DNA from: Sinohyriopsis cumingii
Lineage: Eukaryota; Mollusca; Bivalvia; Unionida; Unionidae
NCBI GenBank assembly: GCA_028554795.2
Contig: CM068830.1
Coordinates: 106,243,145 to 106,307,144, forward strand
DNA: 64,000 nucleotides
Direction of reading: 5' to 3'
The notes below the pieces were generated by a model. The model was given only the letters and a program-made list of their open reading frames with translations. It made no database searches and had not been told where the DNA came from. Below, piece after piece: positions 517 to 35,487 of the stretch. The position numbers and the translations under genes were made by a program. Each line of letters starts with the position of its first letter. Within the stretch, counting starts at the first letter, position 1.

Positions 517-1023
517 AGTAGTGAAAGGGGTGAGATTAGCGTCAATGGGAATTAGCATTAAAAACACCCCATGGGCGAGATTAGCGTCAATGGAAATTTA
601 ACATTAACCACCCTGGGCGAGATTAGCGTCAATGGAAATTTAACATGGGCAAAAAACCCTGGGTAAGATTAACGTCAATGGAATTTAACATTGGAGAAAG
701 GAAAAAAAAGGAAATATTGAGATTAGCGTCAAAGGCATTCGAACAATGGAAAAAAAAATATCGATTCTAGGGACAAAGGCAATTGAACATGGGGAATAGA
801 GTTTGGGTCTGTCTAGGGACAAGGGGAATTGAACATGGGAATAAAGTGTGGGTTTGTCTAGGGACAAAGGGGAATTGAACATGTTAGAAAAAAAACTACT
901 TTAGGGACAAGGGGAATTGAACATGGGATTTTTTTTTTTTTAAATTTTTTTTATAAAGGGGTAGGCAATTGAAAAGTCATTCTCTTTTCGAGAAATATGG
1001 CTGGCCCTGAAAAGGGCCTTTGG
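517..1023. repeat. Polinton-B left TIR
   Basis: Inverted match to 17,337-17,843. It contains two families of short internal repeats: units with GAGATTAGCGTCAATGG and units with AGGGACAAGGGGAATTGAAC, each followed by an AACATGGGA-like end. The inner edge includes the histone-type stem-loop at 1,003-1,018, so the 3' end of the outermost gene is encoded in the TIR. Confidence 0.92.
1003..1018 (-). terminator. Histone-type 3' stem-loop of the gene at 1,045-1,425
   Basis: On the minus strand it reads GGCCCTTTTCAGGGCC: a six-pair stem with a TTTC loop, AAA before it and purine-rich TCTCGAAAAGAGA after it. This is the form of the metazoan replication-dependent histone mRNA end. It lies 27 nt beyond the last coding base. 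Confidence 0.88.
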
Positions 1024-1044
1024 TTTCTTCTTCTTCTTTTGCTT

Positions 1045-1425
1045 CTAATTTCTTCTTTTTCTCCACCAACTTCTTATTTTCTCACCTACACTCTTTTTCT
1101 TCTTTTTTTTCTCCTCCTCTTCTTTCTTCTCTTCCTCCTCCTCTTCTTTCTTCCTCTTCTCATTTTCTTCTTCTTTTTCAATTTTTTCATTCCATTTTCT
1201 TATTCTTATCCTTTCCTCTTCATCCTCCTTCTCCTCCTTTATTTCCTTCATCACACCACTTATCATGTCCTTTGCTTTTCTTAAGTTGTTAATCTCTATT
1301 TTTACTCTATGCGGACTATAAGAATAGTGGTCTTCATTGAGTCGTACTAGCATTTGTTCTATCATGCCCAAATTGTCAGGGACGTCTTGCAATGTTTGAA
1401 ATTTATCGAGGTGGTTCGAAGCCAT
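1045..1425 (-). CDS. Accessory coiled-coil protein 1 (Polinton-B left arm)
   Basis: 126 aa, unrecognised. The first ~55 residues are mixed (start MASNHLDKFQTLQDV); the rest is a long Glu/Lys/Arg-rich charged helix, probably a coiled coil, ending in the basic tail WWRKRRN. Similar length and layout to the next two genes suggest a tandem family. The ATG at 1,425 follows a TATA-like TATAAG (about 1,464-1,473) and the shared upstream motif at 1,482-1,510. The stop codon is followed by a histone-type stem-loop instead of a poly(A) signal. Function unknown; low-complexity composition prevents a family call. Confidence 0.7.
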   Translation of the reverse strand: MASNHLDKFQTLQDVPDNLGMIEQMLVRLNEDHYSYSPHRVKIEINNLRKAKDMISGVMKEIKEEKEDEEERIRIRKWNEKIEKEEENEKRKKEEEEEEKKEEEEKKKKKKSVGEKIRSWWRKRRN

Positions 1426-1463
1426 CTTCTCTGTAGAATGGTTTGAACGACGAATACTGTGGG

Positions 1464-1510
1464 TTCTTATACGAAAAGCGTGGACGTGAAGGAAAACATC
1501 CCCCTAAAAC
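1464..1510 (-). promoter_or_regulatory. Left-arm promoter: conserved motif plus TATA
   Basis: The plus-strand motif GGACGTGAAGGAAAACATCC (1,482-1,501), followed by CCCTAAAAC, lies 5' of the gene at 1,045-1,425. On the gene side it is followed by CGTATAAGAA, a TATA-like box ~40 nt before the ATG. The motif recurs at 2,651, 3,523 and 18,644 before other left-arm genes. A further copy with one change is at 1,551-1,572. Confidence 0.72.
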
Positions 1511-1599
1511 ATAAAATTGATATTACCTAGATCATGACCTAACATCGTGCGGACGTGAAAGAAAACATCCCCTACTTTTCTCATTTCATATAATATACT

Positions 1600-1985
1600 A
1601 TCCACATAAGTGAAGCAACAATAAACAAACCCCAAATCTACTATTTACACACGCAAATCATTAAAACAAAATCCATAATCTACTATCCACACAATCGTAC
1701 GTGAGCGGTTACAAAACCCAAACTATACTCTCCACATACGCTAAGAAACAATAAACAAAATCCATAATCTACTATCCACACAATCGTACGTGAGCGGTTA
1801 CAAAACCCAAACTATACTCTCCACATACGCTAAGAAACAATAAACAAAATCCATAATCTACTATCCACACAATGGTACGTGAGCGGTTACAAAACCCAAA
1901 CTATACTCTTCACATACGCTAAGAAACAATAAAGAAACCCATAATCTACCATTCACACAAACTTACGTGAGCAGTTAAAAACACA
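1600..1985. repeat. 89-bp tandem repeat between left-arm modules
   Basis: About 3.6 copies of an 89-base unit containing ATCCATAATCTACTATCC and CGTACGTGAGCGGTTACAAA; exact starts at 1,671, 1,760 and 1,849. A diverged single unit occurs in the matching position of the next module (~2,805-2,930). No coding potential seen. Confidence 0.8.
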
Positions 1986-2050
1986 AACACACAAACACAT
2001 ACACTTGCACTATGAAAAAAGAGTTAGTGTTTATATTCACACTACTCTAC

Positions 2051-2098
<48 letters not shown>
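2051..2098. repeat. (CA)n microsatellite
   Basis: About 23 CA units following CTACTCTACCTA. The second module has the same flank (2,985-3,006) with only a few CA units, so the array expanded after the module duplicated. Confidence 0.9.
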
Positions 2099-2137
2099 TG
2101 GCAAATTGATGGTTATTTCTTTTCTAGAGTATTGGGT

Positions 2138-2153
2138 AGCCCTGAAAAGGGCT
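2138..2153 (-). terminator. Histone-type 3' stem-loop of the gene at 2,185-2,583
   Basis: The minus strand reads AGCCCTTTTCAGGGCT: same loop and six-pair stem as the others, with a compensating A-T outer pair. The downstream purine tract is TCTAGAAAAGAAA. It lies 32 nt past the end of the coding region. Confidence 0.85.
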
Positions 2154-2184
2154 GGGTTTTTTTTGGAACTTCATGGACACCTGG

Positions 2185-2583
2185 TTAATGGTGGCACCTT
2201 CCAGGCCTGGCGCCACATACACATCTTGTTCCCCAGTTGCTTTTTACTTTTTTGGGGGAGAGAGCAGAGGCAGGATATGTGGCTTCAAAATCCCAATTTT
2301 CGGTTTCTGGGATTCTGAAATTTCTTCTTCTTTTCTCCTTTTCCTCCTCCTCTTCTTTGTATCTTCTCTCCTCCTCTTCTTTGTATCTTCTCTCCTCTTC
2401 TTTGTATCTTCTTTCCTCCTCTTCTTTGTATCTTCTCTCCTCCTCTTCTTTATTTCTTCTTTCCTCCTCCTCTCTCATCCTTCCTTCTTCCACAATGGCC
2501 TCCGCGGCCAGTTCGTTCAACAGGCGCCTGGCATATTCCAGATGAACATGAAGTTCCAACAGTTTCGCCAGTCTCGTGTTCAT
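2185..2583 (-). CDS. Accessory coiled-coil protein 2 (Polinton-B left arm)
   Basis: 132 aa from the first ATG at 2,583; reading upstream to 2,598 gives no ATG. The N-terminus MNTRLAKLLELHVHLEYAR aligns by eye with the start of the gene at 3,091-3,453, so the two are paralogues. Next comes a repeated EEERRYKEE segment (about five 8-residue units), probably coiled coil, then a tail with a few Cys/His (CVCGARPGRCHH). The upstream motif is at 2,651-2,676 with TATA-like TAGTATAAA at ~2,634-2,641, and the 3' end is histone-type. Function unknown. Confidence 0.7.
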   Translation of the reverse strand: MNTRLAKLLELHVHLEYARRLLNELAAEAIVEEGRMREEEERRNKEEEERRYKEEEERRYKEEERRYKEEEERRYKEEEEEKEKRRRNFRIPETENWDFEATYPASALSPKKVKSNWGTRCVCGARPGRCHH

Positions 2584-2633
2584 TCTAGTGTTGATCAATC
2601 AACAAGGGTAGCTGGACTGCCGAACGAGTTTCA

Positions 2634-2676
2634 ATTTATACTAAAACTGCGGACGTGAAGGAAAACATCCCCCTAA
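2634..2676 (-). promoter_or_regulatory. Left-arm promoter, second copy
   Basis: GGACGTGAAGGAAAACATCC at 2,651-2,670, followed toward the gene by TAGTATAAATTG. It sits 50-70 nt before the ATG at 2,583. A decayed second copy (GCGGACCTAAAAGAAACG) lies at ~2,721-2,740. Confidence 0.72.
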
Positions 2677-3047
2677 AAAACACAAAATTGATCTTACCTA
2701 GATCATGACCAAAAAACAACGCGCGGACCTAAAAGAAACGCTCACTCACTTTTTTATACTACCCATTCCTATTCTAAAAAAATTTTTCATTAATCACTCC
2801 AATATACTATTCACATACGCAAAGCAATTCAATCAAACCCCCAAAATCTACTCTCCCCACACCTCAAACAGCCAAAAAAAACATGATCTTAATCTACTAT
2901 CCACACCAACGTACGTGAGATGTTACAAACACAAACACACAAACACATACCCTCACACTATAAAAAAGAGTTAGTGTTTATATTCACACTACTCTACCTA
3001 CACACATTGGCAAATTGATTGTTATTTCTTTTCTAGAGTATTGGGGT

Positions 3048-3063
3048 AGCCCTGAAAAGGGCT
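3048..3063 (-). terminator. Histone-type 3' stem-loop of the gene at 3,091-3,453
   Basis: AGCCCTTTTCAGGGCT on the minus strand, 28 nt past the end of the coding region, with the TCTAGAAAAGAAA tract downstream. Confidence 0.85.
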
Positions 3064-3090
3064 GTTTTTTTTGTTTGCTATGGCAATCTT

Positions 3091-3453
3091 TTAGTTTCTA
3101 AGAATGCGATGTCCTCTGAGGATAGACTTTCTGGCGATAGGTCTGCTTCTTCGGAAAGAGAAGAAGAACTCTTTGGTGTCGATACGACAATCGACAAAGC
3201 CTCTCTCAGGTTCAGGTTCCTGCTGCTGTTGCTGCTGTTGATGTTGTTGTTGCTGATGTCTCTGAAGTCTGTACTTCTCTGTCCATTCTTCTTTCTCCCT
3301 GTTCACTTCTTCTCTGAAGAGTTTTTCTATCAAGTCTTCAGTGACTTTTAGCATTCTCACATTCTCTATCTCTTCTGTCTTCGGTATCAGACTGTGTCTG
3401 ACCCTATGCAAATTCACGTAGGCTTCGTTTAGCTTAGCTAGTTTGGAGCACAT
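3091..3453 (-). CDS. Accessory protein 3, Gln-rich (Polinton-B left arm)
   Basis: 120 aa from the ATG at 3,453. The start MCSKLAKLNEAYVNLHRVRH matches accessory protein 2, marking it as a paralogue. The middle is helical and charged, followed by a Gln/His run (QQQQHQQQQQQQ), then a basic C-terminus with RRSRPIARK. Its promoter motif is at 3,523-3,546 with a TTTAAGAA TATA-like box; the 3' end is a histone-type stem-loop. Role unknown. Confidence 0.7.
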   Translation of the reverse strand: MCSKLAKLNEAYVNLHRVRHSLIPKTEEIENVRMLKVTEDLIEKLFREEVNREKEEWTEKYRLQRHQQQQHQQQQQQQEPEPERGFVDCRIDTKEFFFSFRRSRPIARKSILRGHRILRN

Positions 3454-3505
3454 CTTCGTAGGAGGATGAGTCGACAATGGATGGTTAGACTGGAAACAAC
3501 CCGGT

Positions 3506-3546
3506 TCTTAAAGTGAAAGCGCGGACGTGAAGGAAAACATCCCTCC
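3506..3546 (-). promoter_or_regulatory. Left-arm promoter, third copy
   Basis: GGACGTGAAGGAAAACATCC at 3,523-3,542 with CTTTAAGAAC ~10 nt nearer the gene. It lies before the accessory gene at 3,091-3,453. Confidence 0.7.
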
Positions 3547-3892
3547 ACGGTTTTCGAGCCGCAATGTTCAATGAGTGTCATGAGAGGGATAGTAAGAAGT
3601 CAAAGAGCATGAATCAAACATTCTTATAGCCAAACAAATCACAAAGGCATTTTTTTCAAAACACATCATTTTTTGTTCAAAAATCACTTAACACTAACCA
3701 ACAACTCTAACATTTTTTAACAATAATCCAACAATATAACATCAAACATCTTTTCAATTTACACTCTACTTTAAACAGGGTTGGCAAAGTTGTGAATGAA
3801 AGTGTGATTTCCACTATTGCAAGTCATTGAGTCATGGATGGACACTACGTTTCCTAGCTGAAGACAACAAAATAAGCATACTAGTCAAAAAA
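3547..3892. other. Non-coding spacer, left arm to late-gene block
   Basis: 346 bases of AT-rich sequence. It should contain the 3' end of the late minus-strand transcripts. I see no clean AATAAA and no histone-type stem-loop here. Confidence 0.5.
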
Positions 3893-4375
3893 TCAACGAT
3901 TTACTTTCTCATCGTTTCTAGAAAAATCACGATCAAAATAAGTCACTAAATGTTCTTTTGCTGATAATAAGTGATCAATTTCGATCTCGACTTTCTCTTT
4001 GAATTTGTCAAAGAGGGTTTTGATGTAATGGATGTCTCGAGTCGTTAATGGAGGACAGAAATGTTCACGAAAGTCTTTATACCACCAACGTAACACATCT
4101 TTTTTAAACAGACTCCAAGCTTCGTCCAGATATTCGTTGAATTTTTCTTCTTGACTGATGTTTTGACATCCATAGTAATCATGCTTCATCCATGTCGTAG
4201 TTGTCTCTGCCAGGTATGTAGCACAGTAGGAGACCAATTGCTGTTCTTGTTCTGGCCATCTCGACTTGATCACGATGTCCTTTTCGTCTTTGTGTTGGGA
4301 TTCTCCTTCCACGGTCTCCTCACATTCCATCTTCAAAGCTTCTCCACTAGGTAAAGAGGGATAACAGTCTTCCAT
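3893..4375 (-). CDS. Unknown Polinton-B protein downstream of hexon
   Basis: 160 aa, ATG at 4,375, only a few bases after the hexon stop and so probably on the same transcript. An acidic N-terminus (~40 aa) is followed by a mainly helical, Trp/Tyr-rich region (WWYKDFREHFCPP, IHYIKTLFDKFKEK). No membrane segment or catalytic motif seen. No family recognised; position suggests a late or accessory role. Confidence 0.65.
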   Translation of the reverse strand: MEDCYPSLPSGEALKMECEETVEGESQHKDEKDIVIKSRWPEQEQQLVSYCATYLAETTTTWMKHDYYGCQNISQEEKFNEYLDEAWSLFKKDVLRWWYKDFREHFCPPLTTRDIHYIKTLFDKFKEKVEIEIDHLLSAKEHLVTYFDRDFSRNDEKVNR

Positions 4376-4380
4376 GGCTT

Positions 4381-5709
4381 CTAGTAATCTAGAATGACTT
4401 CTCTCAAACTGTTGATTTCTATGGTATTATCGAATTCTGCATACAGGATGACGTTCAACGTTACATCATCATCACCGATTCTGTTTCCGAACTGAATTTC
4501 CACACGAATCTGGCCGGATTTTATAGGGTGGAAATGTCCCTCGTCGCTGCCTTGGTCTGGAGTGAAATCAAAAGCCCACAAAGCATAGCCTCCGTCATAA
4601 TCGTCGTACGTAATGCCGTGACTGGTGTTGGTTCCTAACTGTCCCGTGGCTTCGTACAAGGACAAGTACGATCTCAAGTAATTCTTCTTCTCAAAGTCAG
4701 GTTCGAAAGGTCGGGTACACAAGGTCTTGCCATCGCGACTGACTTCAATCTTGGACACGTTGAAGTGATGAAAGTTGAAAGGATTTTTAGTGATAGCTCC
4801 GTTGAAGGTTTCATTCGAGACCATACCAAGGATCAAACGTTTGGGTAGCTGTCCTTGGAACAGATGATCTTCAATCATGGATCGCTGTCCACTAGGAATG
4901 GTGAAAGTTTTCACTTCTACGCGTCGGATCGGATACTTGGAGGTCGTTCTGCTCAACGTCTGACTGATGTCGTTACCTGCTTTAGGTAACACTTCCACAC
5001 GACGTACGTAGAGTCTGGCTTCTTGGATTTTGGTTTTGTACTCGCCAGCATCAGCCAATAAATGGAAAGCGGTACTGCTCCGATTCAGTCTCAGGCGGAC
5101 ATCCACCCCGTTCAGCAAATATTTTTCTTGCAACCACATGTCCAAATGCAAACGATCCATCAGTTCTAAACTTTGGTTGGGTCCTATGATTCTCTTTCTT
5201 CGTTCTACAAATCCCTCATTGGTGGTTGTTTTTGATTTGGGGTCAGCTTCAAGACCTGTTTTATCAAATTCGCCCGCTTCGTCAGGTTCCCATAGCACGC
5301 AGGCATTGAGATGAGTGTTCTTGGCGTCTATTCCGTACGTCAAGAGATTTTCCAGGTAGGCACGGTAAGGGCAAGTATCCATGCTGCTACTAACCAGTTT
5401 GTTGTTCAAGTACAAGTCCACTGAGCTGAACAAGGAATGCATGAAATTGTTGACGGGATCTACTGGCTCAGTGTCTATAGCATTTCCATCCTTATCTACA
5501 ACTTTGACTTTCAGGTACAAGTAACTGCTATTCAGATCGATGTAATCTTCGGGCTGTCCCTTGATTTCAAACTCGATGGGAGCGGAATCGGTCAATGAGG
5601 AGACGGGATGAAATTCCACCCATTGGGATTCTTGCATGGTCATCATGGTGGGGGGCATGGCAAACAGATCCAGTTCCGTCTTGGAACAGGCGCAAGACTC
5701 TCGGTGCAT
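4381..5709 (-). CDS. Hexon: major capsid protein, Polinton/adintovirus type
   Basis: 442 aa from the first ATG at 5,709. It is the double-jelly-roll major capsid protein that forms the trimeric capsomer. Seen: the N-terminal SQWVEFHPVSSLTD block and PIEFEI, PVNNFMHSLFSSVDLYLN, RAYLENLLTYG, a central LNGVDVRLRLNRS and a C-terminal region ending near LREVILDY. These are hallmarks of the widespread Polinton MCP family, and the length is usual. The frame is open throughout. It overlaps nothing; the pVI-like gene ends just upstream at 5,730, consistent with a late transcription unit running leftward. Confidence 0.93.
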   Translation of the reverse strand: MHRESCACSKTELDLFAMPPTMMTMQESQWVEFHPVSSLTDSAPIEFEIKGQPEDYIDLNSSYLYLKVKVVDKDGNAIDTEPVDPVNNFMHSLFSSVDLYLNNKLVSSSMDTCPYRAYLENLLTYGIDAKNTHLNACVLWEPDEAGEFDKTGLEADPKSKTTTNEGFVERRKRIIGPNQSLELMDRLHLDMWLQEKYLLNGVDVRLRLNRSSTAFHLLADAGEYKTKIQEARLYVRRVEVLPKAGNDISQTLSRTTSKYPIRRVEVKTFTIPSGQRSMIEDHLFQGQLPKRLILGMVSNETFNGAITKNPFNFHHFNVSKIEVSRDGKTLCTRPFEPDFEKKNYLRSYLSLYEATGQLGTNTSHGITYDDYDGGYALWAFDFTPDQGSDEGHFHPIKSGQIRVEIQFGNRIGDDDVTLNVILYAEFDNTIEINSLREVILDY

Positions 5710-5729
5710 CCTTTTTTTGTTGCAGTGTC

Positions 5730-6146
5730 TCAATAATCGAAAACGTCTAAGTCTCGAACGGTTCTTCTTTTCTTGGCCTTTCTAGCTTGAAGTCTGGTGA
5801 AAGGGTGTTTTCTTCGTCGTCTCTTTCTGCCTTGTCCTTGCTGAATGCTTGCCTCGGTAGCGTGCAGGGCATTTATAGGTGTGTCTTGTCGGCCCAAAAG
5901 GTCTTTACCCGTTTGCAGCAAGACATTTTTGCCTGCCCTCATGAAGGCTTCTTTAGGGTTTTGTTTGTCGATGATGACATTTTGGAGAAATTCTTTGCCT
6001 TGTGTCAGTGCCGCATTTTTCAAGGCGTGCAATCCGCGTGTCACCATCGGTTTCAACACCGGGGCCACTGAACGAAAGGCCGATTTTAACACATCTCTTA
6101 AACCGTGTCCTCGCTGTCGTGCAACCCCTCGATACACTGGATACAT
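5730..6146 (-). CDS. pVI-like / basic virion protein
   Basis: 138 aa, ATG at 6,146, between penton and hexon. The N-terminal YRGVARQRGHGL, followed by amphipathic helix SVAPVLKPMVTRGLHALK, is the usual start of the small Polinton/adintovirus protein placed beside the hexon. The C-terminal third is very basic (GRKRRRRKHPFTRL, RKAKKRRTVRDL). By analogy with adenovirus pVI or core proteins it would link capsid and DNA or disturb membranes; that is inference. The frame is intact. Confidence 0.8.
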   Translation of the reverse strand: MYPVYRGVARQRGHGLRDVLKSAFRSVAPVLKPMVTRGLHALKNAALTQGKEFLQNVIIDKQNPKEAFMRAGKNVLLQTGKDLLGRQDTPINALHATEASIQQGQGRKRRRRKHPFTRLQARKAKKRRTVRDLDVFDY

Positions 6147-6187
6147 GATTTACGAGTCGTGAGAGAACCGTTTTCGAAAATGGAGTT

Positions 6188-7063
6188 TCACCGTGATTTT
6201 CTTTTGGTGAATGGAATATTTTGTCCCAAATCTCCTTTTATAGCAATGTTGACCGTGTCCAAATACGACTTGCTGACAGGCAAATAATGAGGATGCACAA
6301 ATTCCCGGTGGACGTGATAGGTGTTTCCACCTTCCTGGTCACTGGTCGTGGTACTATCCACTTTGAAAGGAATGACACGCAGTAACGGTACAGAGGTGTG
6401 TCCCACCACGTTATACTCCACCACATCGGAGTACACGAACATCAAATTCAGTCCTTGGTTCAGTTCTACAGGGAATCGAAAAAACTTGTAAAATTCCGTA
6501 TTGCTGTTGATCTTCGGTTTAAAATTTGGAGCCATTTTTGTGTCTCCACCTAAAATATCAAACAAGTCACGATTAAAACTGATGGACAACGTTTGGGTAT
6601 CCTGAAATTTCATCAGTAAGCGACAAGCCACTTTATGGTACTCCAGGGTGACACTTTTTTTGACTCTGTTCAGGGCTTTGCCAAAGGCGAACTCGAACCT
6701 GGAAGTAATGGTGTCCACCAAATGTTGGCCACTAAAATAAAACCCTGCCGGAATTTTCAAGGTGTAGATATTGAAGGGTGAATTGTTGGATGGTCTTGTG
6801 TCCCCTGAAAACCCGATGTCATTCATGGCTTCTTGTAATTGTTGGTTCAGGATTTCGACCTCAAAAGTGTTTTGCTTTTCGGTGATGTTTTGGATTTGTG
6901 TAGGGTGAATCATTTCTACTAAAGCCTATTCCCAATGGGCTTCGTGATCTAACTGGATGGCTTGAGGTAATTTAGCCGTGTAACAGCACAACGTGTTGTG
7001 GGGAAACACCTCCATGGAACTGTCACTGGGTAAGGTTAAGTAAAATTGGTTTTCGTGACTCAT
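6188..7063 (-). pseudogene. Penton (minor capsid protein) with an in-frame stop
   Basis: The reading begins at ATG 7,063, overlapping the stop of the membrane-protein gene (ATGA overlap). The first 45 codons contain the FYLTLPSDSS and FPHNTL blocks typical of Polinton pentons. A TAG at 6,926-6,928, directly after HWE, interrupts them. The frame continues with ALVEM and a 241-aa open stretch from 6,913 containing FYFSGQHL, SRFEFAFGK and NLMFVYSDVVEYNVVG. The single-jelly-roll penton sits at capsid vertices. Re-initiation at 6,913 would give a shorter protein without the conserved N-terminus. Family call by motif; break seen directly. Confidence 0.85.
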
Positions 7064-7479
7064 AATTCCAGAGTTCTGTGGCTGTCCGAGGAGTTAGTGG
7101 ACGTCAGAGGCGTGTCTCCGCCCAAAATGGGGTTCTGGTTGTGGTTGTTGTTGGAGTGGTGACTGGCACTGGTACTGGACACAAGGTTCCCGTGGTTCCC
7201 GTTCGAGGAGAATTTCAGGGAGGGATTGGGAAGCAGGTAATCGATGCAACTGCTCAATAAAATGGTCCACAGTTGTTTGTCTCCTTGTTGCAAACTCAAA
7301 TTGGCAATGGCTGCCCCGATGACACAATACACCACGAAGATTTGGCAGAAAAAGACGATTTGCGTTTTAGGCACACGTTCTCCACACCACACCCACAAGG
7401 GTTGTTTTTGTAAATCTTGCACAGAAGAACTAGGTGAAGGAGGAGTGGTCGACGTAGCTGCGTCTGTGTGAAAGGGCAT
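7060..7479 (-). CDS. Polinton late membrane protein
   Basis: 139 aa from the ATG at 7,479; upstream in-frame codons lack an ATG. PLWVWCGERVPKTQIVFF leads into a hydrophobic stretch (IFVVYCVIGAAIANLSL), then WTILLSSCIDYLLPNP and a Ser/Asn/His-rich tail. This WCGE/VPKT plus LLPNP pattern is typical of a small membrane protein found in many Polintons; its role is not established. TATA (ACTATAAAAAG) at about 7,491-7,500 lies ~15-20 nt before the ATG. Its stop overlaps the penton start. Confidence 0.8.
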   Translation of the reverse strand: MPFHTDAATSTTPPSPSSSVQDLQKQPLWVWCGERVPKTQIVFFCQIFVVYCVIGAAIANLSLQQGDKQLWTILLSSCIDYLLPNPSLKFSSNGNHGNLVSSTSASHHSNNNHNQNPILGGDTPLTSTNSSDSHRTLEL

Positions 7480-7484
7480 GATGG

Positions 7485-8594
7485 TCACTTCTTTTTATAG
7501 TCGATGACTTGCGAAGCGTCGATCCAAGAATCAAAACTGGGCGGATATCCTTTCCAACGTACTTTGACTTCTTTGACACGTCGTTTGCCCACTTTACGGG
7601 TTCTGCGTTCGAGAATGCTTTCGATGTCGTACACGTCGTCTTCTTTTTTGGTGACACGTTGTAACTCGGGCAAATAAAACGTTCCTTTGAGCACTTCTCC
7701 GTTCATGTCTTCCAATTTATAGACGGCAGGATGACGGCCATGCACTCGTCCAGTGACGCGAAACAATTCGGTCGTCCAGTTAGGTAAGTAACCTTTGTCG
7801 AAAGTGCGTTTGGTATTGCCAATGCGCACCCAATCTCCTACGGCCAACTCTCCACTTTTCATGGGGACAGCCCTCGTCGGGGACGTACCGAACAGACGCT
7901 CAAACACCAACACTTCGTTGTCGGGAGTCACGTCTTGCGGGGCACGTCCGATGCTTCGATGGTAAGATTGGTTGTACGCTTGCACCAGGTGCGGTAAGAT
8001 GTCGATGTACTTCAGAGTGTGGTGATGCGTAAAATATTTCCACATGCGTTCTTTCAAAGTGCGTTGAAAACGTTCCACGATGCTGGCTTTGGTTTCGGGA
8101 TTCTCGGTGGTAAAAAATTGAATGTCACGTTTCTTTAATTCTTTTTGGAAAGCTTGGTTCAGAAATTCATTGCCTTTGTCCGTTTGCCATCGAAGAGGGT
8201 GACGACCGCTTTGTTTCAACACCCGTTGCAGGGCTCGCACTAACTCGCTGCTGGATTTGGAAGTCAAGGGCACGACCCAGGCAAATTTGGAAAAGACGTC
8301 GATGACAGAAAACAAATATTTGTAGCCACGATTGTAGCTGGCCAAATGAGAGACATCGGCTAAATCGGCTTGCCATTGATGATCGATGCCTTCCACTCGG
8401 GTGCGACTTCTGGCAAACTTGCGTCGAATGGGTTTGTGTAAAGTGTAGGTAGCTTGTTCTTGTAACCATCGTTGCACTTGAGGTAAACGGAGACTTTTCA
8501 GTCGCGTTTTGGCAGCACGATACAATTTTTGAACTCCTGCGTAACCTGCAGGATGCGAGGGATCGTAGTAAATGCTGGCTAAGACTTTTTCCAT
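7485..8594 (-). CDS. Retroviral-type integrase with chromodomain
   Basis: 369 aa from the ATG at 8,594. It catalyses insertion of the linear element with 6-bp staggered cuts. Order: N-terminal helical region, then the rve core with the D,D,E triad (WQADLADVSHL; WQTDKGNEF; ASIVERFQRTLKERM), an SH3-like segment (AVGDWVRI), and a C-terminal chromodomain (YDIESILERR, VRWKGYPPSFDSWI). Chromodomain integrases are known in Polintons and chromoviral Gypsy elements and may direct target choice to marked chromatin. The frame is intact. Chemistry agrees with the 6-bp duplications at both Polintons here. Confidence 0.95.
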   Translation of the reverse strand: MEKVLASIYYDPSHPAGYAGVQKLYRAAKTRLKSLRLPQVQRWLQEQATYTLHKPIRRKFARSRTRVEGIDHQWQADLADVSHLASYNRGYKYLFSVIDVFSKFAWVVPLTSKSSSELVRALQRVLKQSGRHPLRWQTDKGNEFLNQAFQKELKKRDIQFFTTENPETKASIVERFQRTLKERMWKYFTHHHTLKYIDILPHLVQAYNQSYHRSIGRAPQDVTPDNEVLVFERLFGTSPTRAVPMKSGELAVGDWVRIGNTKRTFDKGYLPNWTTELFRVTGRVHGRHPAVYKLEDMNGEVLKGTFYLPELQRVTKKEDDVYDIESILERRTRKVGKRRVKEVKVRWKGYPPSFDSWIDASQVIDYKKK

Positions 8595-8614
8595 TTTTTG
8601 TGTTGGTTGGTGTG

Positions 8615-9253
8615 TTAATAAGGCACCCACTCTTGGAAGATGCTACTCTTTTTCTCTTGTGGTACTTTCTTGGATTGCAATGCTTTGCGTGTGCGACCAG
8701 CATTAGGTGTTGAAGAGGAGGATATCTGAGCGGGGGATATCGGTTCTTGTTTCACTTCTGTCTTCACTTCTGTCTTCACTTTCTTTTTCTCTTGTGATGA
8801 AGAAGGGGTGGCCATCATCTTTTTAATCCATACAATTCTGGAGGTAGGTGGTGTTGTTAACTTGCGTACTTTTTCTGGTGGAGTTTGAAACCCTTCTTCT
8901 TCTTCTTCTCCTTTTTCTGTCTTGGTCACTGGTAGTGGTGGTACTGGTACTGGTACTGGTGATGGTGCTGGACTTTTCATCAAGGTCTTAAAATCTTTCA
9001 GAGTGGGTAGAGCTGTTTCGTCTAAAGCTTTCTGGTGAAAGAGTTGCAGTCGTTGCAAGAGTTGACCGTACTTTTGCGATTTTTCTGTTTCGGACAAATC
9101 TTGGCGATCCATTAAGGACTGCAATTCGTGTTGTAACTGGGACATCTCGCTCAAATGGGGATTGGGAGGTAAATGCGGGGTGCGTTGTTCTTGCCACCGA
9201 TGGTATTCCATCCATCGTTTGTAAGGCACTAAAGCTAGTTTTCGTCCTTCCAT
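8615..9253 (-). CDS. Coiled-coil Polinton protein (KLALVPYKRW family)
   Basis: 212 aa from the ATG at 9,253. KLALVPYKRWMEY near the start is followed by a helical region with heptad-like LQHELQSLM and YGQLLQRLQLF. The rest is low-complexity Pro/Ser/Lys-rich, with acidic GEEEEEGF and VKTEVKTEVKQE repeats. Polintons commonly encode a protein with such a start between the integrase and core genes; its function is unknown, perhaps an internal virion protein. A GATAAAAAG TATA-like box lies at about 9,297-9,308. Confidence 0.65.
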   Translation of the reverse strand: MEGRKLALVPYKRWMEYHRWQEQRTPHLPPNPHLSEMSQLQHELQSLMDRQDLSETEKSQKYGQLLQRLQLFHQKALDETALPTLKDFKTLMKSPAPSPVPVPVPPLPVTKTEKGEEEEEGFQTPPEKVRKLTTPPTSRIVWIKKMMATPSSSQEKKKVKTEVKTEVKQEPISPAQISSSSTPNAGRTRKALQSKKVPQEKKSSIFQEWVPY

Positions 9254-9302
9254 AGGGTTGTCAGGGGTCAATTCTGAGATCTTGGGACTTCCGAGGGCCT
9301 TT

Positions 9303-9689
9303 TTATCTTGCTCCCACCAGTCCTCCCAACATGGTTCCCAAGACTCCTTTCAGTATGGGGCCTAACAAGAGAGTCAAAATGCCTCCACGTTGGACCAACA
9401 TCTTCTTCTTTTGACGAATGGGAATTTTCTTTCGAACCATTTGGCGAAGAACGTGACGATGTTTGCTTAAGCATTGTTTCTGGTGTTTGGACAAAGGGAT
9501 CGTGCCTTTCAAAACGTTCAAACAACATTCGCACACGGTATCGATGACCTCTTTGGAGGCCGATTGAATGAGTTTTTTTCGTAGAGGTGACGAAGCTTTG
9601 GACAGGACAGATAACATGTCCCCATGTTTGACTAAACGTGGTGGTAGTCCTTTTCTTTTCTTTCCTTGGGGTTTTCTGGAGGGTGACAT
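9303..9689 (-). CDS. Basic core-type protein (pX-like), copy 1
   Basis: 128 aa from the ATG at 9,689; a TATA box (AGTATAAAAAAG, ~9,748-9,757) lies within the longer open frame, which makes 9,689 the likely start. A conserved block of Cys and basic residues (VCECCLNVLKGTIPLSKHQK; RKKIPIRQKKKMLVQRGG) is followed by a hydrophobic Gly-rich tail (GPILKGVLGTMLGGLVG). This is a very widespread Polinton/adintovirus small protein, compared in the literature to adenovirus core protein X. Probably virion DNA- or membrane-associated. Its domain recurs in the next gene. Confidence 0.75.
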   Translation of the reverse strand: MSPSRKPQGKKRKGLPPRLVKHGDMLSVLSKASSPLRKKLIQSASKEVIDTVCECCLNVLKGTIPLSKHQKQCLSKHRHVLRQMVRKKIPIRQKKKMLVQRGGILTLLLGPILKGVLGTMLGGLVGAR

Positions 9690-9751
9690 CTTTGAGTCTT
9701 CAGGAGCACCAAAAGAAACACTGATATCCCCGACTTGGTCACAGGTCTTTT

Positions 9752-10675
9752 TTATACTGGAACGCGTCGCCACTGATTGTCTTTACGGCGTATCAGTTTG
9801 AGGACAGGCATGACACGTCGTGGAGGGGTACGCAACGGACTAAATCGAGCCAGTTCTTGCTTGGACAAATCCAGTAAACTTTGTAACATACCCGATCTTT
9901 CATGGACTTTGATTTTGGGAGAAGGTACTTTGTGAGCAGCAGCCACTGCCACTAAATTGGAGGGTCCTGCCACTGGGGAAGTTCTTTTTGGGGTCATCAA
10001 CGGAGAAGTTCTTGGTGTGATCAACGTTTCCAAGTACTCTTCAGTTCTTGGCGTCATCAACGGAGAAGTGGATGAACGTGAGGCTGCCGGAAATGCGGTC
10101 ACCGCCGTGGCAGGTCGTGGTTTGCGGGTGTAAGGTTGCGTCCTGGCCGAAGTGCCTCTCTTGCGACTAGTTTTCTTCTGTGGACTTTTCTTTTTCTGGG
10201 GGCTTCTTTTCTTTTCCCGGGGTGGTGTCTGGTAAGAGGAGGGTCCCGCCACTGGAGAAGTTCTTCTTGGGGACCTGGTCTTTTTCTTTTTCTTCTTGGG
10301 GCTTCGTTGGACTTTTTTCTTGGGGATAACTTTGGGGGCATTAGGATCCCATCTTAAGAGTGAGCGAATGATGACCCCTCCTAGAGTACCACTCCCTCCA
10401 GGTTTCAAAATGATTTGTTTTTTGGTTTGAGTGTCGATGCGGGGATCGGCCAGTTGGACCAAAGCGACTTTGTTTCGATCGAAAAAGCGTTTGGTTTGAT
10501 GAGGAATCTGAATGATTCCTTGGAGTATTTGACGTGCCGTCACCGTGAACCATCGTAAGACTTCTTTGAGACTAGCTTCTAAGACACGAGCTCGTATTTG
10601 TGGATTTTTTTCTCGACTGATGCCATACAAGGCACGAATCAATTTGACGGGAAGATGCGACTGAAGGGACGTCAT
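9752..10675 (-). CDS. Basic core-type protein with pX-like N-terminal domain, copy 2
   Basis: 307 aa from the ATG at 10,675 (TATAAAAA at 10,716-10,723). The first ~110 residues resemble gene 9,303-9,689 in pattern (ARQILQGIIQIP ... TKKQIILKPGG), suggesting duplication and divergence. Residues ~120-260 are Lys/Pro/Ser/Thr-rich with repeated RTSPVAGPS and TSPLMTP motifs, reminiscent of histone-tail-like or Cdk-type SP/TP sites. A short basic C-terminus includes LKLIRRKD. Likely a DNA-binding virion protein; function inferred only from composition and position. Confidence 0.65.
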   Translation of the reverse strand: MTSLQSHLPVKLIRALYGISREKNPQIRARVLEASLKEVLRWFTVTARQILQGIIQIPHQTKRFFDRNKVALVQLADPRIDTQTKKQIILKPGGSGTLGGVIIRSLLRWDPNAPKVIPKKKVQRSPKKKKKKTRSPRRTSPVAGPSSYQTPPREKKRSPQKKKSPQKKTSRKRGTSARTQPYTRKPRPATAVTAFPAASRSSTSPLMTPRTEEYLETLITPRTSPLMTPKRTSPVAGPSNLVAVAAAHKVPSPKIKVHERSGMLQSLLDLSKQELARFSPLRTPPRRVMPVLKLIRRKDNQWRRVPV

Positions 10676-10793
10676 GTTCGCACTGTGAGTGAGACAGAAC
10701 AAAAAGGGTCTGAGGTTTTTATAGATTTTTTTATGTGGAGTGAAATGAAGTCGAGGACTGAGACGTGTACAGGACAGGCCCTCCGTCTTGGCA

Positions 10794-11474
10794 TCAGTGG
10801 TGAAACAAGTGGGTACGAAATCGCAAATCCTCGGGGGTCGTAGGTTTCAAATCGACGAGTAAATAGGCGTGTGGAGTTTGAGTGGCATCGTCGTACGCCT
10901 GAGTCAGCCAAGGCGTTCCTAACTGTTTGGCTAAGACTTGCACTTGCGATTTATCTCGAGGGCTTTTAAACAAGACCACGTAATGCGCATTGAGACTGAG
11001 GGTGCGATGGGCTTTACTTTGTTGAAACAAATTTTGGGTGATGTAAACGACACTGGCATTACGGCGATGCCCTTTGCGCGTAAACCACAGTTTAATTTCT
11101 TCTTCGTCTTCTCCTAACATGTCGTCGAAAATGACCAAATGGGTTTGACGGGAGTCAGAGACGATGCCGTCGTCTTCTTTAGGAATGCCTTCCACAAACA
11201 CGACGGAATCGCCTTGACTTTCTCGCAAGAGGCTGTACGCCGATTGCCACTCTTTGTAACACCACACGATCCGCTGAGGTGGTCGATCGATCAAATGATG
11301 TTTATGTTCGATCAAACGTTTGACAAATTCGGTTTTGCCTGAACCGCTAGGTCCAGCAATGAGCATGTTAAAGGGATGGCGAAGATACAAAGCCTCCCAA
11401 CTGGCACGATCTAAGTGTTCGTCGATGACTTTGACAGTGGAGGAAGAGGGAGCAGAGACAGCAGAGGTAGCCAT
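10794..11474 (-). CDS. Genome-packaging ATPase (FtsK/HerA-A32 type)
   Basis: 226 aa, ATG at 11,474, TATA (AGTATATAAA) at ~11,521-11,530. Walker A is GPSGSGKT at residues ~41-48, Walker B is HLVIFDDML, and VVYITQNLF is the sensor-type strand. This is the standard Polinton/NCLDV-like packaging motor that translocates DNA into capsids. Length and motif spacing are normal for the family and the frame is intact. It is the first gene of the late block reading leftward. Confidence 0.93.
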   Translation of the reverse strand: MATSAVSAPSSSTVKVIDEHLDRASWEALYLRHPFNMLIAGPSGSGKTEFVKRLIEHKHHLIDRPPQRIVWCYKEWQSAYSLLRESQGDSVVFVEGIPKEDDGIVSDSRQTHLVIFDDMLGEDEEEIKLWFTRKGHRRNASVVYITQNLFQQSKAHRTLSLNAHYVVLFKSPRDKSQVQVLAKQLGTPWLTQAYDDATQTPHAYLLVDLKPTTPEDLRFRTHLFHH

Positions 11475-11544
11475 AGTGTGAGAAATGTCACTTGTGACAC
11501 GAAAACAAACAAGACAAGAGTTTATATACTTTTTTCAGAACACG

Positions 11545-11550
11545 TTTATT
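11545..11550 (-). terminator. Poly(A) signal of the polymerase transcript
   Basis: AATAAA on the minus strand (TTTATT on plus), after the end of the polymerase reading. Contrast with the histone-type ends of the accessory genes. Confidence 0.65.
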
Positions 11551-11557
11551 GAATGTT

Positions 11558-11755
11558 TCAAACATGAATACGAAAGACAAAAATACATAAAATCCAAAGG
11601 CTTAAGTATAAGGATAAAAGGCACATGATAACCATGAACGTGGAATAAACACAAGTGTCTGTACAACATGTTTTGGGTAATGTTCTAACCAGTTCTATAG
11701 TAGGGGGTAAGGTCACAGAAGTGTCCTCCCGAAAGGGTCTTTGAGGCCTGTCCAC
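11558..11755 (-). other. Open frame with C-terminal membrane segment replacing the polymerase C-terminus
   Basis: A 65-codon open stretch with no ATG (first codon GTG) whose end is strongly hydrophobic (FMVIMCLLSLYLSLWILCIF). It begins where Polinton-B diverges from the polymerase of Polinton-A, and AATAAA follows. It may be a fragment of another gene joined by recombination, or reached by frameshift. Not recognised. Confidence 0.35.
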
Positions 11756-14700: not shown

Positions 14701-15440
14701 ATAGTTTTCCAGGCTCTTTTCCATTCTGCCGTGTCGTTCTTGTTGGCATAGGTTCGTCCCACCACGATGGCTCGGGCTAAGCACATCTGGTCTTGAGGGT
14801 TGTTAATTTGGACGAGATTCTTTTTGGTGCTGCGAAGGTCGTTCACCAATAACACCTTATTGCGTTGTCCGGTCCCTTGAGGAGGAGAGACGTGGGCCAT
14901 TTTCAGTGTGGTTTTTCCATCGGTGATGTCAAACTGGTCATTAGATTGTTGTACGTGTTGAATCTTGTCCATGACTTTGGAAGGGGTTAGTTCTGCGGGT
15001 CTGCTAAACTCGATCCAAACAGGGGATTTCAAGCTGTCGTGATCTATGGATAGTGTCAAGCGATCGTCTTCTTTGGGTTGACATTGTCGCTTGAGTGTGG
15101 TGAGCAAAGAATCCCACATCTCGGTGATAAACCCTTCTGCTTTCTCCAAGGGTACGTCGGCCTTGAAATCTTTAAACTTCACCGTGTAGTTGTAAGCCGT
15201 GGTTCTAAATTTTCTAGAGGAGCGCTTTTCCGTCTCTCGAATGGAATAGTACTTTTCAGGGTTAACTAAGGGTGGTGAACTTTGTTCAGCGGGTTCAGAT
15301 TCTGGTTCACTCATGTCCTCTTCAAAATCACTGGCATGAATTTGTGCCAAGGCTTCAGCTCTGGTACGAGGCGATAGATCGCGTTTCTGCCTCTTACTTT
15401 CTTCTTATTCTTTCTTCTCGAATGAATAGGATCGTTTCAT
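11713..15440 (-). pseudogene. polB: Protein-primed-type DNA polymerase B, broken (Polinton-B)
   Basis: Family B polymerase that would replicate the element. Seen in order: N-terminal region; paired-Cys zinc modules around 14,100-14,400; Exo I (FIFLDFECMQE), Exo II (HNFSGYDGQF), Exo III (YCRSDVDIL); polymerase motif A (DVCSLYPYVC), B (KVMLNCLWGKMA) and C (YFDTDSCIY). Breaks seen: in-frame stop near 15,405; frame changes near 13,886 and 13,430; stops near 13,000 and 12,535. The sequence after motif C is lost near 11,760 compared with Polinton-A. No single product is possible as written. Start at ATG 15,440, divergent from the zinc-knuckle gene. Confidence 0.9.
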
Positions 15441-15575
15441 CTTGAGTGCAAAACGTCAAATGACTCAAGTTTAAACACCATAGACTAATTTATTGTCATG
15501 ACAAACCAGCGTATATAAAAAGGGTGTGTGTCTTGTCCTTTCACTATTCATTTCACTCTCAAACGGAGCACAACG
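15441..15575. promoter_or_regulatory. Divergent promoter: polymerase / zinc-knuckle gene
   Basis: TATATAAAAAGG at ~15,513-15,524 serves the plus-strand gene. TGACTCA (AP-1-like) at ~15,460 is not kept in the Polinton-A counterpart (33,268-33,400), which does keep GTATATAAAGG. Confidence 0.6.
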
Positions 15576-15935: not shown

Positions 15936-16276
15936 GAGAAGAAAAGAAGAAGGGAAGAAAGTGAGGAGGAAGAGGAGGAAAAGGCTGTGACGGTGAAGAA
16001 ATTGAAAAAAAGAGAGAGTAAAAAAAAAAGAAACAGAAGAAGTGAATGTAATTTATAAAGTGTTCTGTTGTGAATTGTGAATTGGATTGTAACTATGGAG
16101 AAAAGAATACATTAATTATATAAGGTAAGTGTCTTTGAGTTTTGATTTTAAAATAAGAAGCTACACTCACGCACTCATACACAGACATGTACTATAAGGG
16201 TAAAATGTTTTTTTTTGTTGTTGATTTTTGAGTTATTGGCAAATTGAAAGGCTATCTCTTTTCGAGAGAAGTGGGT

Positions 16277-16292: not shown

Positions 16293-16317
16293 TTTTTATT
16301 TTGGTGTAGGGGTGAGT

Positions 16318-17322: not shown

Positions 17323-17336
17323 TATTAATATTAACA

Positions 17337-26809: not shown

Positions 26810-26846
26810 TCTTCTGGTGAGTGACTATCCTCTTACAACCAATGTT

Positions 26847-33886: not shown

Positions 33887-33911
33887 ATTAAATTGTAAAT
33901 ATTGATAAAAG

Positions 33912-33917
33912 AATAAA
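33912..33917 (+). terminator. Poly(A) signal of the zinc-knuckle gene
   Basis: AATAAA, 26 bases after the stop codon. The Polinton-B copy has AATACA at this place. Confidence 0.65.
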
Positions 33918-34076
33918 TTGATTATAAAAGGTAAGTGTCTTTGGGTTTTTGATTTTAAAATAAGAACCTACACTCACGCACTCATACACAGACACGTACT
34001 ATAGGGGTAAAATGGGTTGTTGTTTTTTTTGAGTTATTGGCAATTGAAATTGTATCTCTTTTCGAGAGACGTGGGT

Positions 34077-34092
34077 GGCCCTGAAAAGGGCC
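34077..34092 (-). terminator. Histone-type 3' stem-loop of the gene at 34,115-34,662
   Basis: GGCCCTTTTCAGGGCC on the minus strand, then ACCCACGTC and TCTCGAAAAGAGATAC. It lies 23 nt past the coding end. Confidence 0.9.
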
Positions 34093-34114
34093 TTTTTTTG
34101 GTGTGGGGGTGAGT

Positions 34115-34662
34115 TTAAGCAATCAACTTTAACTGTCTTAAGCCTTTGCCACGGCCGAGGCCTACTTCCGATGATGATTTGGTTGAAATCACTAAGGGTG
34201 GTACGGTAGGCTTAGTCACAGGGCTGGAGTGTTTAGCTCGGGAAGGTCGTATTCTCTTCGGTCGTGATAAAGAAGTCAGATACATTTGTTTCAGACTTCT
34301 TAACTCCGCTAAAATGTCCAACAGTACCGTGACGGTTTGACTTTCACCCTCTTGTTTCTTTGCTTCTTCTTCTTCTTCTTGCTGTTTTTTTCTTACCTCT
34401 TCTTCTTGCTGCTGTTGCTGTAGAAGAAAAGCTTGTTCTGCTTCCTTTTGCTGCTTCATAAATTTCTCCAATTCTTCTTTCTTCTCTGTCTAAAATTCTC
34501 CACGTGTGGTAATGATGGTGACGAAGGTTCTGGAACAAATTCTTGCGAGGTAAGAAAATCCACAAAATTCCAATTCGCCTGTTCTGAAAGTAAGTCCGGG
34601 TTCCCTTGTGTAGTCTCCACGGCTGGTGCACCCCAATGGATCGTTTTCTGAGTTTCCGTCAT
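34115..34662 (-). pseudogene. Right-arm Gln-rich coiled-coil gene (Polinton-A), one frameshift
   Basis: Copy of 16,318-16,869. It starts at ATG 34,662 (TIHWGAPAVE kept), then a frame change near 34,490 before the Gln/Glu coiled coil; the C-terminal 118 residues are open and end as in Polinton-B (RGKGLRQLKLIA). Shares a divergent promoter with 34,882-35,106 and ends at a histone-type stem-loop. Confidence 0.78.
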
Positions 34663-34881
34663 GTTGAAAAACTTTCACATGGATTGACTGCACACAGGTG
34701 ATATCGAATCTATATAGACTATGTGACGTCACAGACTGCTCTCTGCGGATTGGATGTGGGCTAACTGAATTTTGTTACGCGTGTATGGATTGGTCAACGA
34801 ACTCAATCCGTTTCAATCCTTTCTGTCCCTATAAATAAGCGCAGTTCAGTGCAATCACTCACCTGTTCTCGCAGCCTCAAG
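34663..34881. promoter_or_regulatory. Divergent promoter with CRE, CCAAT and TATA elements (Polinton-A)
   Basis: Palindromic CRE TGACGTCA at 34,724-34,731, GGATTGG boxes near 34,748 and 34,788, TATA-like TCTATATAGAC (~34,709-34,719) and CTATAAATAAGCG (~34,830-34,842). Same order and spacing as 16,870-17,088. Confidence 0.72.
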
Positions 34882-35106
34882 ATGTGGACCACAGTCGAAT
34901 CATCAACCCTTGTTTCTTCAATGATGTTCAGGACGGACATACCCATGTATGTCCGATCCAAGTGGACCGTTGTCCATAGGACCACCACCAGTCTATGGAT
35001 ACGTAGGATTTACGTGGAGAGACAAGGATGCCTCAAAAGAGTACTCATTTACGGTCCTACAGTGAGACGAAGTTTAAGGCGAAGAAGATGTCGCAGATGC
35101 CCTTAA
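34882..35106 (+). CDS. Small Arg/Cys-rich basic protein (Polinton-A right end)
   Basis: 74 aa, ATG at 34,882. Close copy of 17,089-17,322: MWTTVESSTLVSSMM start and Arg-rich end with paired Cys (RRSLRRRRCRRCP). The frame has stayed open in both elements while neighbours broke, which hints at selection or recency. Ends 29 nt before a histone-type stem-loop. Confidence 0.75.
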   Translation: MWTTVESSTLVSSMMFRTDIPMYVRSKWTVVHRTTTSLWIRRIYVERQGCLKRVLIYGPTVRRSLRRRRCRRCP

Positions 35107-35130
35107 TGTTAAGGGCATATTAACATAAAC

Positions 35131-35487
35131 CAAAGGCCCTTTTCAGGGCCACTCCAATTTCTCGAAAAGAGATCTACTTTCAATTGCCTACCCCCATTTA
35201 TTTTTTTTATATAAAAAAATCCCATGTTCCATTCCCCTTGTCCCTAAACAGTCCCACGATTAATTTCCATGTTAGATTCCCCTTGTCCCTAGAATTGCTT
35301 TTTTTCTCCCATGTTAAATTTCCCTTGTCTCTAAACTAACCCAAAATAGATTCCCATGTTAATTCCCATTGTCCCCAAAGGGCCGCAACAATATCTCGCA
35401 TGTTAAATTTACATAGTCCCCCAAGGGCCGGGACCCCTACATTTAATGGTAAGTCCCCTTGTCCCGCTATCGCCCCCATTCACTACT
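35131..35487. repeat. Polinton-A right TIR
   Basis: Inverted match to 284-516 joined to 17,850-17,973, ending CCATTCACTACT. It carries the uninterrupted target sequence of Polinton-B. Confidence 0.92.
35135..35150 (+). terminator. Histone-type 3' stem-loop of the gene at 34,882-35,106
   Basis: GGCCCTTTTCAGGGCC on the plus strand, with CCAAA before it, then ACTCCAATTT and TCTCGAAAAGAGAT. Confidence 0.9.

Follow-up and report, generated by a model that had tools for sequence, protein, structure and literature searches.

Histone-type 3′ end signals behind the accessory genes of a Polinton lineage in the bivalve Sinohyriopsis cumingii

Several short accessory genes of a Polinton lineage in the genome of the bivalve Sinohyriopsis cumingii are followed by the two-part signal that the host's own histone genes carry at their 3′ ends, namely a hairpin of six base pairs with a four-base loop and, at the same spacing, a downstream element with the core AAAAGA. 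On the evidence of the sequence we consider it highly likely that this lineage uses the host SLBP/U7 histone 3′-end pathway for these genes. The window, by which we mean the whole 64-kb stretch of DNA that was analyzed (contig CM068830.1, positions 106,243,145 to 106,307,144), holds three Polinton copies, one of them complete, and an earlier note on it had pointed to eight hairpins of this type.

The hairpins of the window

All eight hairpins of the earlier note are present, at the coordinates and on the strands that it gave. The check it had proposed, with the Rfam covariance model of the stem-loop of the histone 3′ untranslated region (Histone3, RF00032), matches at E ≤ 5 exactly these eight sites in the window and no ninth, with 27.1–42.5 bits and E values from 3.2e-9 to 0.0018; four of the eight meet the gathering score of 34. 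The same eight sites are the only ones that fit the pattern RGYCCTTTTCAGGGCY with at most one mismatch, for which 100 shuffled sequences gave a mean of 0.01 matches and a maximum of one. Given the covariance-model scores and this shuffle expectation, chance hairpins were rejected as an explanation. The hairpins are spread over three Polinton copies, A, B and C, of which only A is complete, with terminal inverted repeats (TIRs) and a 6-bp target duplication. Distances below are in nucleotides (nt) from the stop codon to the stem.

1003..1018, minus strand: hairpin of gene L1, in the left TIR of copy A; RF00032 33.9 bits, E 5.1e-6; 26 nt
2138..2153, minus strand: hairpin of gene L2, with an A-U closing pair; 27.1 bits, E 0.0018; 31 nt
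3048..3063, minus strand: hairpin of gene L3, with an A-U closing pair; 29.3 bits, E 0.00027; 27 nt
16277..16292, minus strand: hairpin of the 183-aa gene of copy A, with one G-U pair; 31.0 bits, E 6.2e-5; 25 nt
17347..17362, plus strand: hairpin of the right-end gene, in the right TIR of copy A; 42.5 bits, E 3.2e-9; 24 nt
17954..17969, minus strand: hairpin in the TIR of the third element, C, placed by flank comparison; 38.3 bits; 30 nt
34077..34092, minus strand: hairpin of the 183-aa gene of copy B; 36.7 bits; 22 nt
35135..35150, plus strand: hairpin in the right TIR of copy B, placed by the TIR end; 38.0 bits; 28 nt
17372..17384, plus strand: TCTCGAAAAGAGA, downstream element behind the right-end gene, whose AAAAGA core is at 17377, 14 nt past the stem; host histone genes have a similar core and spacing

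Every hairpin lies on the coding strand of the open reading frame (ORF) in front of it, as the earlier note had said, at a distance that is to be corrected from 23–32 to 22–31 nt. Its description of the flanks, with AAA usually before the hairpin and a purine-rich element after it, fits six of the eight sites: the downstream element there is TCTCGAAAAGAGA, and the exceptions are 2138 and 3048, which have CCC and AAC, respectively, immediately 5′ of the hairpin and CTCTAGAAAAGAAA in place of the downstream element. It should be kept in mind that these are three independent classes of sites and not eight independent cases. The first class comprises the TIR sites (1003, 17347, 17954 and 35135); the second, 16277 and 34077, is the end of the same gene in two Polinton copies; and the third is the left-end pair, 2138 and 3048, which lies within a duplicated stretch (95% over 76 bp). 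Between classes the closing stem pair differs on both sides, being G-C in some and A-U in others. A second palindrome (ATGTTAATATTAATATTAACAT) surrounds the stop codon of the right-end gene just before its hairpin, at about 17310–17346, and other copies have TTTATGTTAA...TTAACATAAA forms there.

The host's histone genes and other Polinton copies

The most telling comparison is that with the histone genes of the host itself. The host genome (2,904,868,851 bases) was searched, and 150 of 662 candidates for the histone family PF00125 were scored. The matches are arranged in long tandem repeats of about 8.3 kb (L094; contigs C310, C531, C561 and others), and the one repeat that was read, L094, holds H3, H4, H2B, H2A and H1, with H1 and H2A confirmed by Pfam. 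All five genes have an RF00032 match over the cut-off (35.0–39.4 bits), 27–38 nt past the stop codon. The hairpins read GGCCCTTTTTAGGGCC in H3 and H4, GGCCCTTTTCAGGGCC in H2B, GGCCCTTTTAAGGGCC in H2A and GGTCCTTTTCAGGACC in H1, and that of H2B is identical to the commonest Polinton hairpin. The host core, AAAAGA (AAAAGG in H2A), starts at +14 past the stem in H3, H4 and H2B and at +15 in H2A and H1; of the 64 sites in the window and in 30 loci picked by their hairpins, 58 have AAAAGA[GA]A at +14, one has it at +15 and five lack it. As hairpin, core and spacing are all as in the host histones, the Polinton signal matches the host signal in both of its parts and in their distance. The central claim of the earlier note, that Polinton accessory genes carry the full 3′ signal of replication-dependent histone mRNAs, is thus well supported by the covariance model, by other copies and above all by these host genes. 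The tail past the L2 downstream element also resembles the tail of host H2A (a likeness reached in 8 of 20,000 shuffles, but the best of 20 comparisons), which is a weak hint only that the one may derive from the other.

The same signals were looked for in other Polinton copies of the host genome, and they were found there. The genome scan with RF00032 gave at least 75 scored matches from 589,472 first-look candidates, all 75 of them over the cut-off, and 50 of these loci were fetched. A Polinton protein motif is present in every one of the 50, and the motifs used for H2A, H2B, H3 and H4 are present in none; the motifs were short, one of the Polinton motifs being loose, and with tighter motifs the figure was 19 of 20. 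The host histone hairpins were not among the 75 scored matches, although their scores would outrank the last entries.

Loci chosen by their proteins tell a similar story. The 183-aa protein has at least 150 matches in the host genome, scored from 32,418 first-look candidates, at 95–100% identity and mostly without an internal stop. Among the 30 loci fetched, 29 have the hairpin with at most one mismatch, 25 have all six pairs, and 29 have the core at +14; these 30 copies are 96–100% alike in protein, so that retention among them alone says little on constraint. The copies picked by their capsid gene are more diverse. An oyster capsid protein used as query gave 175 matches, and the five copies fetched are 80, 80, 85, 86 and 93% identical in capsid to that of the window, the last three over 279–283 residues only. 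Each of the five has three hairpins beyond the capsid gene, two of the A-U type followed by one of the TIR type; RF00032 matches all 15 (E 5.6e-9 to 0.0042; 4 of 15 over the gathering score), 14 have six pairs, and all 15 stand 19–43 nt past the stop of an ORF. The end pattern of the 77-aa gene was found at 59 ends in protein-picked loci, 29 of them with the hairpin, and most of the other 30 belong to another reading frame, so these counts give no retention rate. The Polinton family is very numerous in the host genome. Five matches of the 183-aa gene stand about 11.85 kb apart on C7 (136.33–136.38 Mb), and many capsid matches are crowded on C16, at 30.3–31.5 Mb.

A measure of constraint comes from the ends of the 183-aa gene. 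Of 56 ends, the six whose own hairpin had picked the locus were set aside, which leaves 50: 30 at protein-picked loci and 20 at loci that a different hairpin had picked. Among these ends GAAAAGA has a pairwise diversity of 0.006, the downstream element 0.016, ACCCA 0.032 and the hairpin 0.036; the corresponding values are 0.054 for the spacer before the hairpin, 0.087 for the stretch between hairpin and downstream element, 0.056 for the tail and 0.102 for the sequence further downstream. The downstream element is therefore the least variable non-coding part, with the hairpin intermediate; since the compared copies share recent ancestry, these values measure constraint on the active lineages and not on each copy. 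The signals, their positions, their match to the host histone signals and their retention are features of the sequence itself.

The Polinton copies and their accessory genes

Copy A is flanked on both sides by the target duplication ATCGTG (511–516 and 17844–17849), and its TIR ends match. Flank comparison shows it to be inserted in the left TIR of element C, which starts at 284 and continues from 17850. Copy B, which is damaged, has its right end at 35487.

517..17843: Polinton copy A, complete in extent, 17,327 bp; TIRs begin AGTAGTGAA; 6-bp target duplication; polB in pieces
517..1026: left TIR of copy A, 96% identical, inverted, to 17338–17843; inner edge 8 nt inside the hairpin
17338..17843: right TIR of copy A, about 510 bp; inner edge 9 nt inside the hairpin

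Several proteins mark these elements as Polintons/Mavericks. A family B polymerase of the viral/organellar (protein-primed) type is encoded by ORFs of copies A and B (PF03175, E down to 1.5e-22), the gene of copy A being fragmented. An integrase with a chromodomain is encoded at 7485–8594 (PF00665, E 2.6e-14; PF00385, E 1.2e-7), and an A32-like packaging ATPase at 10794–11474 (PF04665, E 1.8e-6, over the cut-off). The capsid protein of copy A is a double jelly-roll major capsid protein by its structure model (mean pLDDT 79), whose 50 best PDB matches (E 1e-16 to 1e-12) are all capsids of large DNA viruses or virophages, Sputnik and mavirus among them; the sequence profile alone gave no match in the PDB. 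Among the 120 best of 675 relatives of the capsid, those with an animal name are all from bivalves (Mercenaria, oysters), at 45–53% identity. No Pfam match to an adenain-like cysteine protease was found among the window ORFs scanned. A LINE-type (long interspersed nuclear element) element of 908 aa, with reverse transcriptase and RNase H domains, lies between the Polinton copies at 19594–22320, and an ORF for an OTU-like cysteine protease (401 aa, 36472–37677) adjoins copy B.

The genes in front of the hairpins, and the promoter-like motifs in front of some of these genes, are the following.

1045..1425, minus strand: L1, ORF for a 126-aa protein rich in Lys and Glu; no Pfam histone match
2185..2583, minus strand: L2, ORF for a 132-aa protein; no Pfam histone match
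3091..3453, minus strand: L3, ORF for a 120-aa protein; no Pfam histone match
16318..16869, minus strand: conserved 183-aa accessory protein of copy A; 19 homologues in the protein database (aligned), at least 150 matches in the host genome
17089..17322, plus strand: ORF for the 77-aa right-end protein of copy A, with an arginine-rich C-terminus; two homologues
18000..18218, minus strand: 72-aa ORF, judged by position probably the 3′ part of the left-end gene of element C
34115..34459, minus strand: 3′ part (114 aa) of the 183-aa gene of copy B, frame interrupted; ORF and Pfam scan
34882..35106, plus strand: 74-aa right-end protein of copy B; ORF and Pfam scan
1480..1502, plus strand: 23-bp promoter-like motif of L1, 55 bp before the start codon; second copy at 1549–1571, 124 bp before it
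2649..2671, plus strand: 23-bp promoter-like motif of L2, 66 bp before the start codon
3521..3543, plus strand: 23-bp promoter-like motif of L3, 68 bp before the start codon
18642..18664, plus strand: 23-bp promoter-like motif of element C, 67 bp before the ORF at 18318–18575, which is probably the 5′ part of the left-end gene

The eight proteins encoded in front of the hairpins (126, 132, 120, 183, 77, 72, 114 and 74 aa) have no match to a histone family in Pfam at E ≤ 1, which bears out the earlier remark that none resembles a histone; a scan of the same kind gives strong matches for host H1 and H2A. For L1 there is a weak TAF4 match (16 bits against a cut-off of 33, E 0.011), which we take as an effect of composition. 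The possibility that histone genes had been misread as Polinton genes was rejected on these scans and on the protein motifs of the 50 loci fetched by RF00032. The right-end protein, with its arginine-rich tail, may bind DNA, though this is a guess.

The terminal genes at the two ends of copy A point outward. Its two TIRs cease to be homologous 8–9 nt inside the hairpin, so that the TIR supplies the 3′ end of both terminal genes. At the other end of the left-end genes stands the 23-bp motif GCGGACGTGAAGGAAAACATCCC (plus strand), which with up to three mismatches has five matches in the window and none in 100 shuffles. It always precedes the start of a left-end accessory ORF, four times at 55–68 bp and once at 124 bp, and this position suggests a shared promoter element. 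By sharing the motif, the left-end genes look like one regulated set.

Explanations and significance

In PMC1924863, SLBP is described as binding the hairpin and the U7 small nuclear ribonucleoprotein (snRNP) as pairing with the downstream element, after which the RNA is cut past the hairpin; histone mRNAs, according to PMC12775136, carry no poly(A) tail and are broken down when S phase ends. What we propose for the Polintons is that a recently expanded lineage has placed the host histone 3′ signal on five genes, namely the three left-end genes, the 183-aa gene and the right-end 77-aa gene. Host SLBP would bind the hairpin and the host U7 snRNP would pair with the AAAAGA downstream element (AGAAAAGA), and the pre-mRNA would be cut a few nucleotides past the stem to give a poly(A)-minus mRNA. 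These mRNAs would then be exported, translated and destroyed as histone mRNAs are, which would tie the expression of the accessory genes to S phase, the time of host DNA copying, with the messages available mainly then. Processing, the absence of poly(A) and the coupling to S phase are what we infer from the signals. In the complete copy the signal adjoins the inner edge of both TIRs; a single repeated cassette thus closes off both of the terminal genes, which read outward, ahead of the host DNA. It is also probable, if with less assurance, that the lineage routes a defined gene set through the histone mRNA pathway: the left-end genes have a promoter-like motif in common, and behind all five genes stands a histone signal that is in part built into the TIR. 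To our knowledge, this would be the first non-histone gene set of a virus or transposon with mRNA ends of the SLBP/U7 type.

A number of results weigh against this proposal. The host U7 small nuclear RNA was not found with its Rfam model, RF00066, whose best match (29.3 bits) is below the cut-off and has no matching 5′ element; the three sub-threshold host matches are by eye not U7, and at E ≤ 10 the model also matches in 12 of 14 control genomes. A guessed U7 pattern gave 136 and 133 matches versus 93 and 112 for the backward control. Host SLBP was not found either, with no match at E ≤ 0.001 in a search in which the controls were silent too, and four matches below the cut-off in another. The searches for U7 and SLBP alike are weak for genes that are short or split by introns. 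The signals themselves are not without flaws: the exact AAAAGA[GA]A core is missing at the five sites mentioned above, a broken pair or a deletion affects 5 of the 30 hairpins at protein-picked loci, and 6 of 54 sites in hairpin-picked loci have no ORF ending within 80 nt upstream, while several follow very short ORFs only, as in decayed copies. The hairpin is also slightly more variable than the last 87 coding bases (0.036 vs 0.026). Poly(A) motifs occur as well: the 183-aa gene of copy A has AATAAA 18 nt past its stop codon, just before the 16277 hairpin, and motifs of the TATAAA type stand 87–150 nt past the stop at six of the eight sites, which makes polyadenylation possible. Finally, six more distant Polinton contigs have no RF00032 match at E ≤ 5, with only three of them (L002, L003 and L005) extending at least 5 kb beyond the capsid gene and the others cut short. 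As a side observation, the best of the sub-threshold SLBP matches (L098, C4:22739800–22742300) lies among ORFs that resemble, by eye only, another virus-like mobile element.

Could the hairpins act as DNA rather than RNA, as TIR palindromes for replication, packaging or integration that came to resemble those of histone genes through convergence? Half of the window sites, four of eight, do lie in TIRs, with the TIR inner edge 8–9 nt from the stem, and another palindrome stands just before the right-end hairpin. However, the other four are internal, all are strand-specific and keep their distance from stop codons in the window and in five other copies, and the loop, the 3′ flank and the AAAAGA at +14 resemble host histone genes in ways that a palindrome does not need; we find this explanation scarcely credible. 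Only slightly less improbable is a relic of capture, in which a histone 3′ flank was acquired once and persists, unused, through recent copying. The youth of the copies, as seen in the near-identical matches of the 183-aa gene, speaks for it, as does the likeness of the L2 tail to that of H2A; but the downstream element and the hairpin vary less than their non-coding surroundings, copies with as much as 20% difference in the capsid protein have kept the signals, and these stand behind five different genes, with a closing pair that differs on both sides between classes.

The two remaining alternatives are compatible with use of the histone pathway. One is mixed use, with the genes largely polyadenylated and the hairpin acting only in part, as in histone genes that have both signals. 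Seven poly(A) motifs were checked within 200 nt of the stop codon. AATAAA is found 163 nt past a polB fragment and 26 nt past the zinc-knuckle gene of copy B, as expected from the earlier claim that polymerase and zinc-knuckle genes use AATAAA-like signals instead of hairpins. This contrast holds in part only, as nine ORFs at 3893–10675 have none of the seven motifs, the zinc-knuckle gene of copy A has AGTAAA, TATAAA and AATACA only, and a hairpin gene, the 183-aa gene of copy A, has AATAAA itself. That AATAAA and the TATAAA-type motifs argue for mixed use, as do the C. elegans histone genes described with both hairpin and poly(A) signal in the excerpt of PMC1924863. On the other hand, none of the seven motifs follows the 183-aa gene of copy B, and it is the downstream element, for which polyadenylation would have no use, that is best conserved among the non-coding parts; mixed use appears unlikely to us. 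We give somewhat more room, still as a minority possibility, to signals that work mainly in a role other than S-phase timing, such as storage in the oocyte or embryo, evasion of surveillance that relies on poly(A), or titration of host SLBP and U7. The very many element copies in the genome speak for such roles; titration needs large amounts of transcript, and no result here separates these roles from coupling to S phase.

Histone-type ends seem to be a trait of one lineage and not general to Polintons, judging from the six distant contigs without the signal. These contigs come from bacterial assemblies (two labelled as an endosymbiont of Escarpia and one each as a Bathymodiolus symbiont, Breoghania, Rickettsiaceae and a cyanobacterium) and are probably contamination with animal DNA. 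In a viral collection the hairpin pattern matched 7 contigs, none reaching the RF00032 gathering score, and a longer pattern with AAA matched none; the capsid and 183-aa proteins found no relatives there. No earlier report of histone-type ends on Polintons, viruses or transposons was found among the titles and abstracts listed in the literature searches, with most subscription journals outside their reach, and the excerpts of PMC2646287 and PMC11071296 contain nothing on them.

With the ends of replication-dependent histone mRNAs, those described here share the six-pair stem, the four-base loop, the AC-type 3′ flank, AAAAGA at +14, the short distance from the stop and short, uninterrupted ORFs, down to a hairpin identical to that of host H2B. 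They differ in belonging to non-histone genes of a mobile, virus-like element and in lying partly in its TIRs. With Polintons/Mavericks and adintoviruses, the elements share PolB, a retroviral-type integrase with a chromodomain, an A32-like ATPase, a double jelly-roll capsid, TIRs and a 6-bp target duplication; the histone-type 3′ ends set them apart, at least from the six related contigs, three of which reach 5 kb or more beyond the capsid gene. The C. elegans histone genes also have the histone hairpin in the 3′ untranslated region, but their putative U7 site, in the excerpt of PMC1924863, is AATCC with an adjoining poly(A) signal, whereas here the AAAAGA element is kept. Another link between viruses and histones, likewise seen in clam data, is the Histoid gene of adomaviruses, where, according to the excerpt of PMC11071296, the protein itself is histone-like; in the Polintons only the predicted mRNA end is.

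PMC12775136 describes the histone hairpin as belonging to histone mRNAs and as the end that, in animals, takes the place of the poly(A) tail. RNA sequencing with poly(A) selection could miss transcripts that end in this way, so we would caution that these elements may look silent when they are active. The many copies in the host genome offer many natural variants of the signal for testing. If the proposal is true, non-histone genes of a mobile element that have adopted the hairpin would show that the histone pathway can be borrowed, and they would suggest how a virus-like element residing in a chromosome times its genes to DNA replication.

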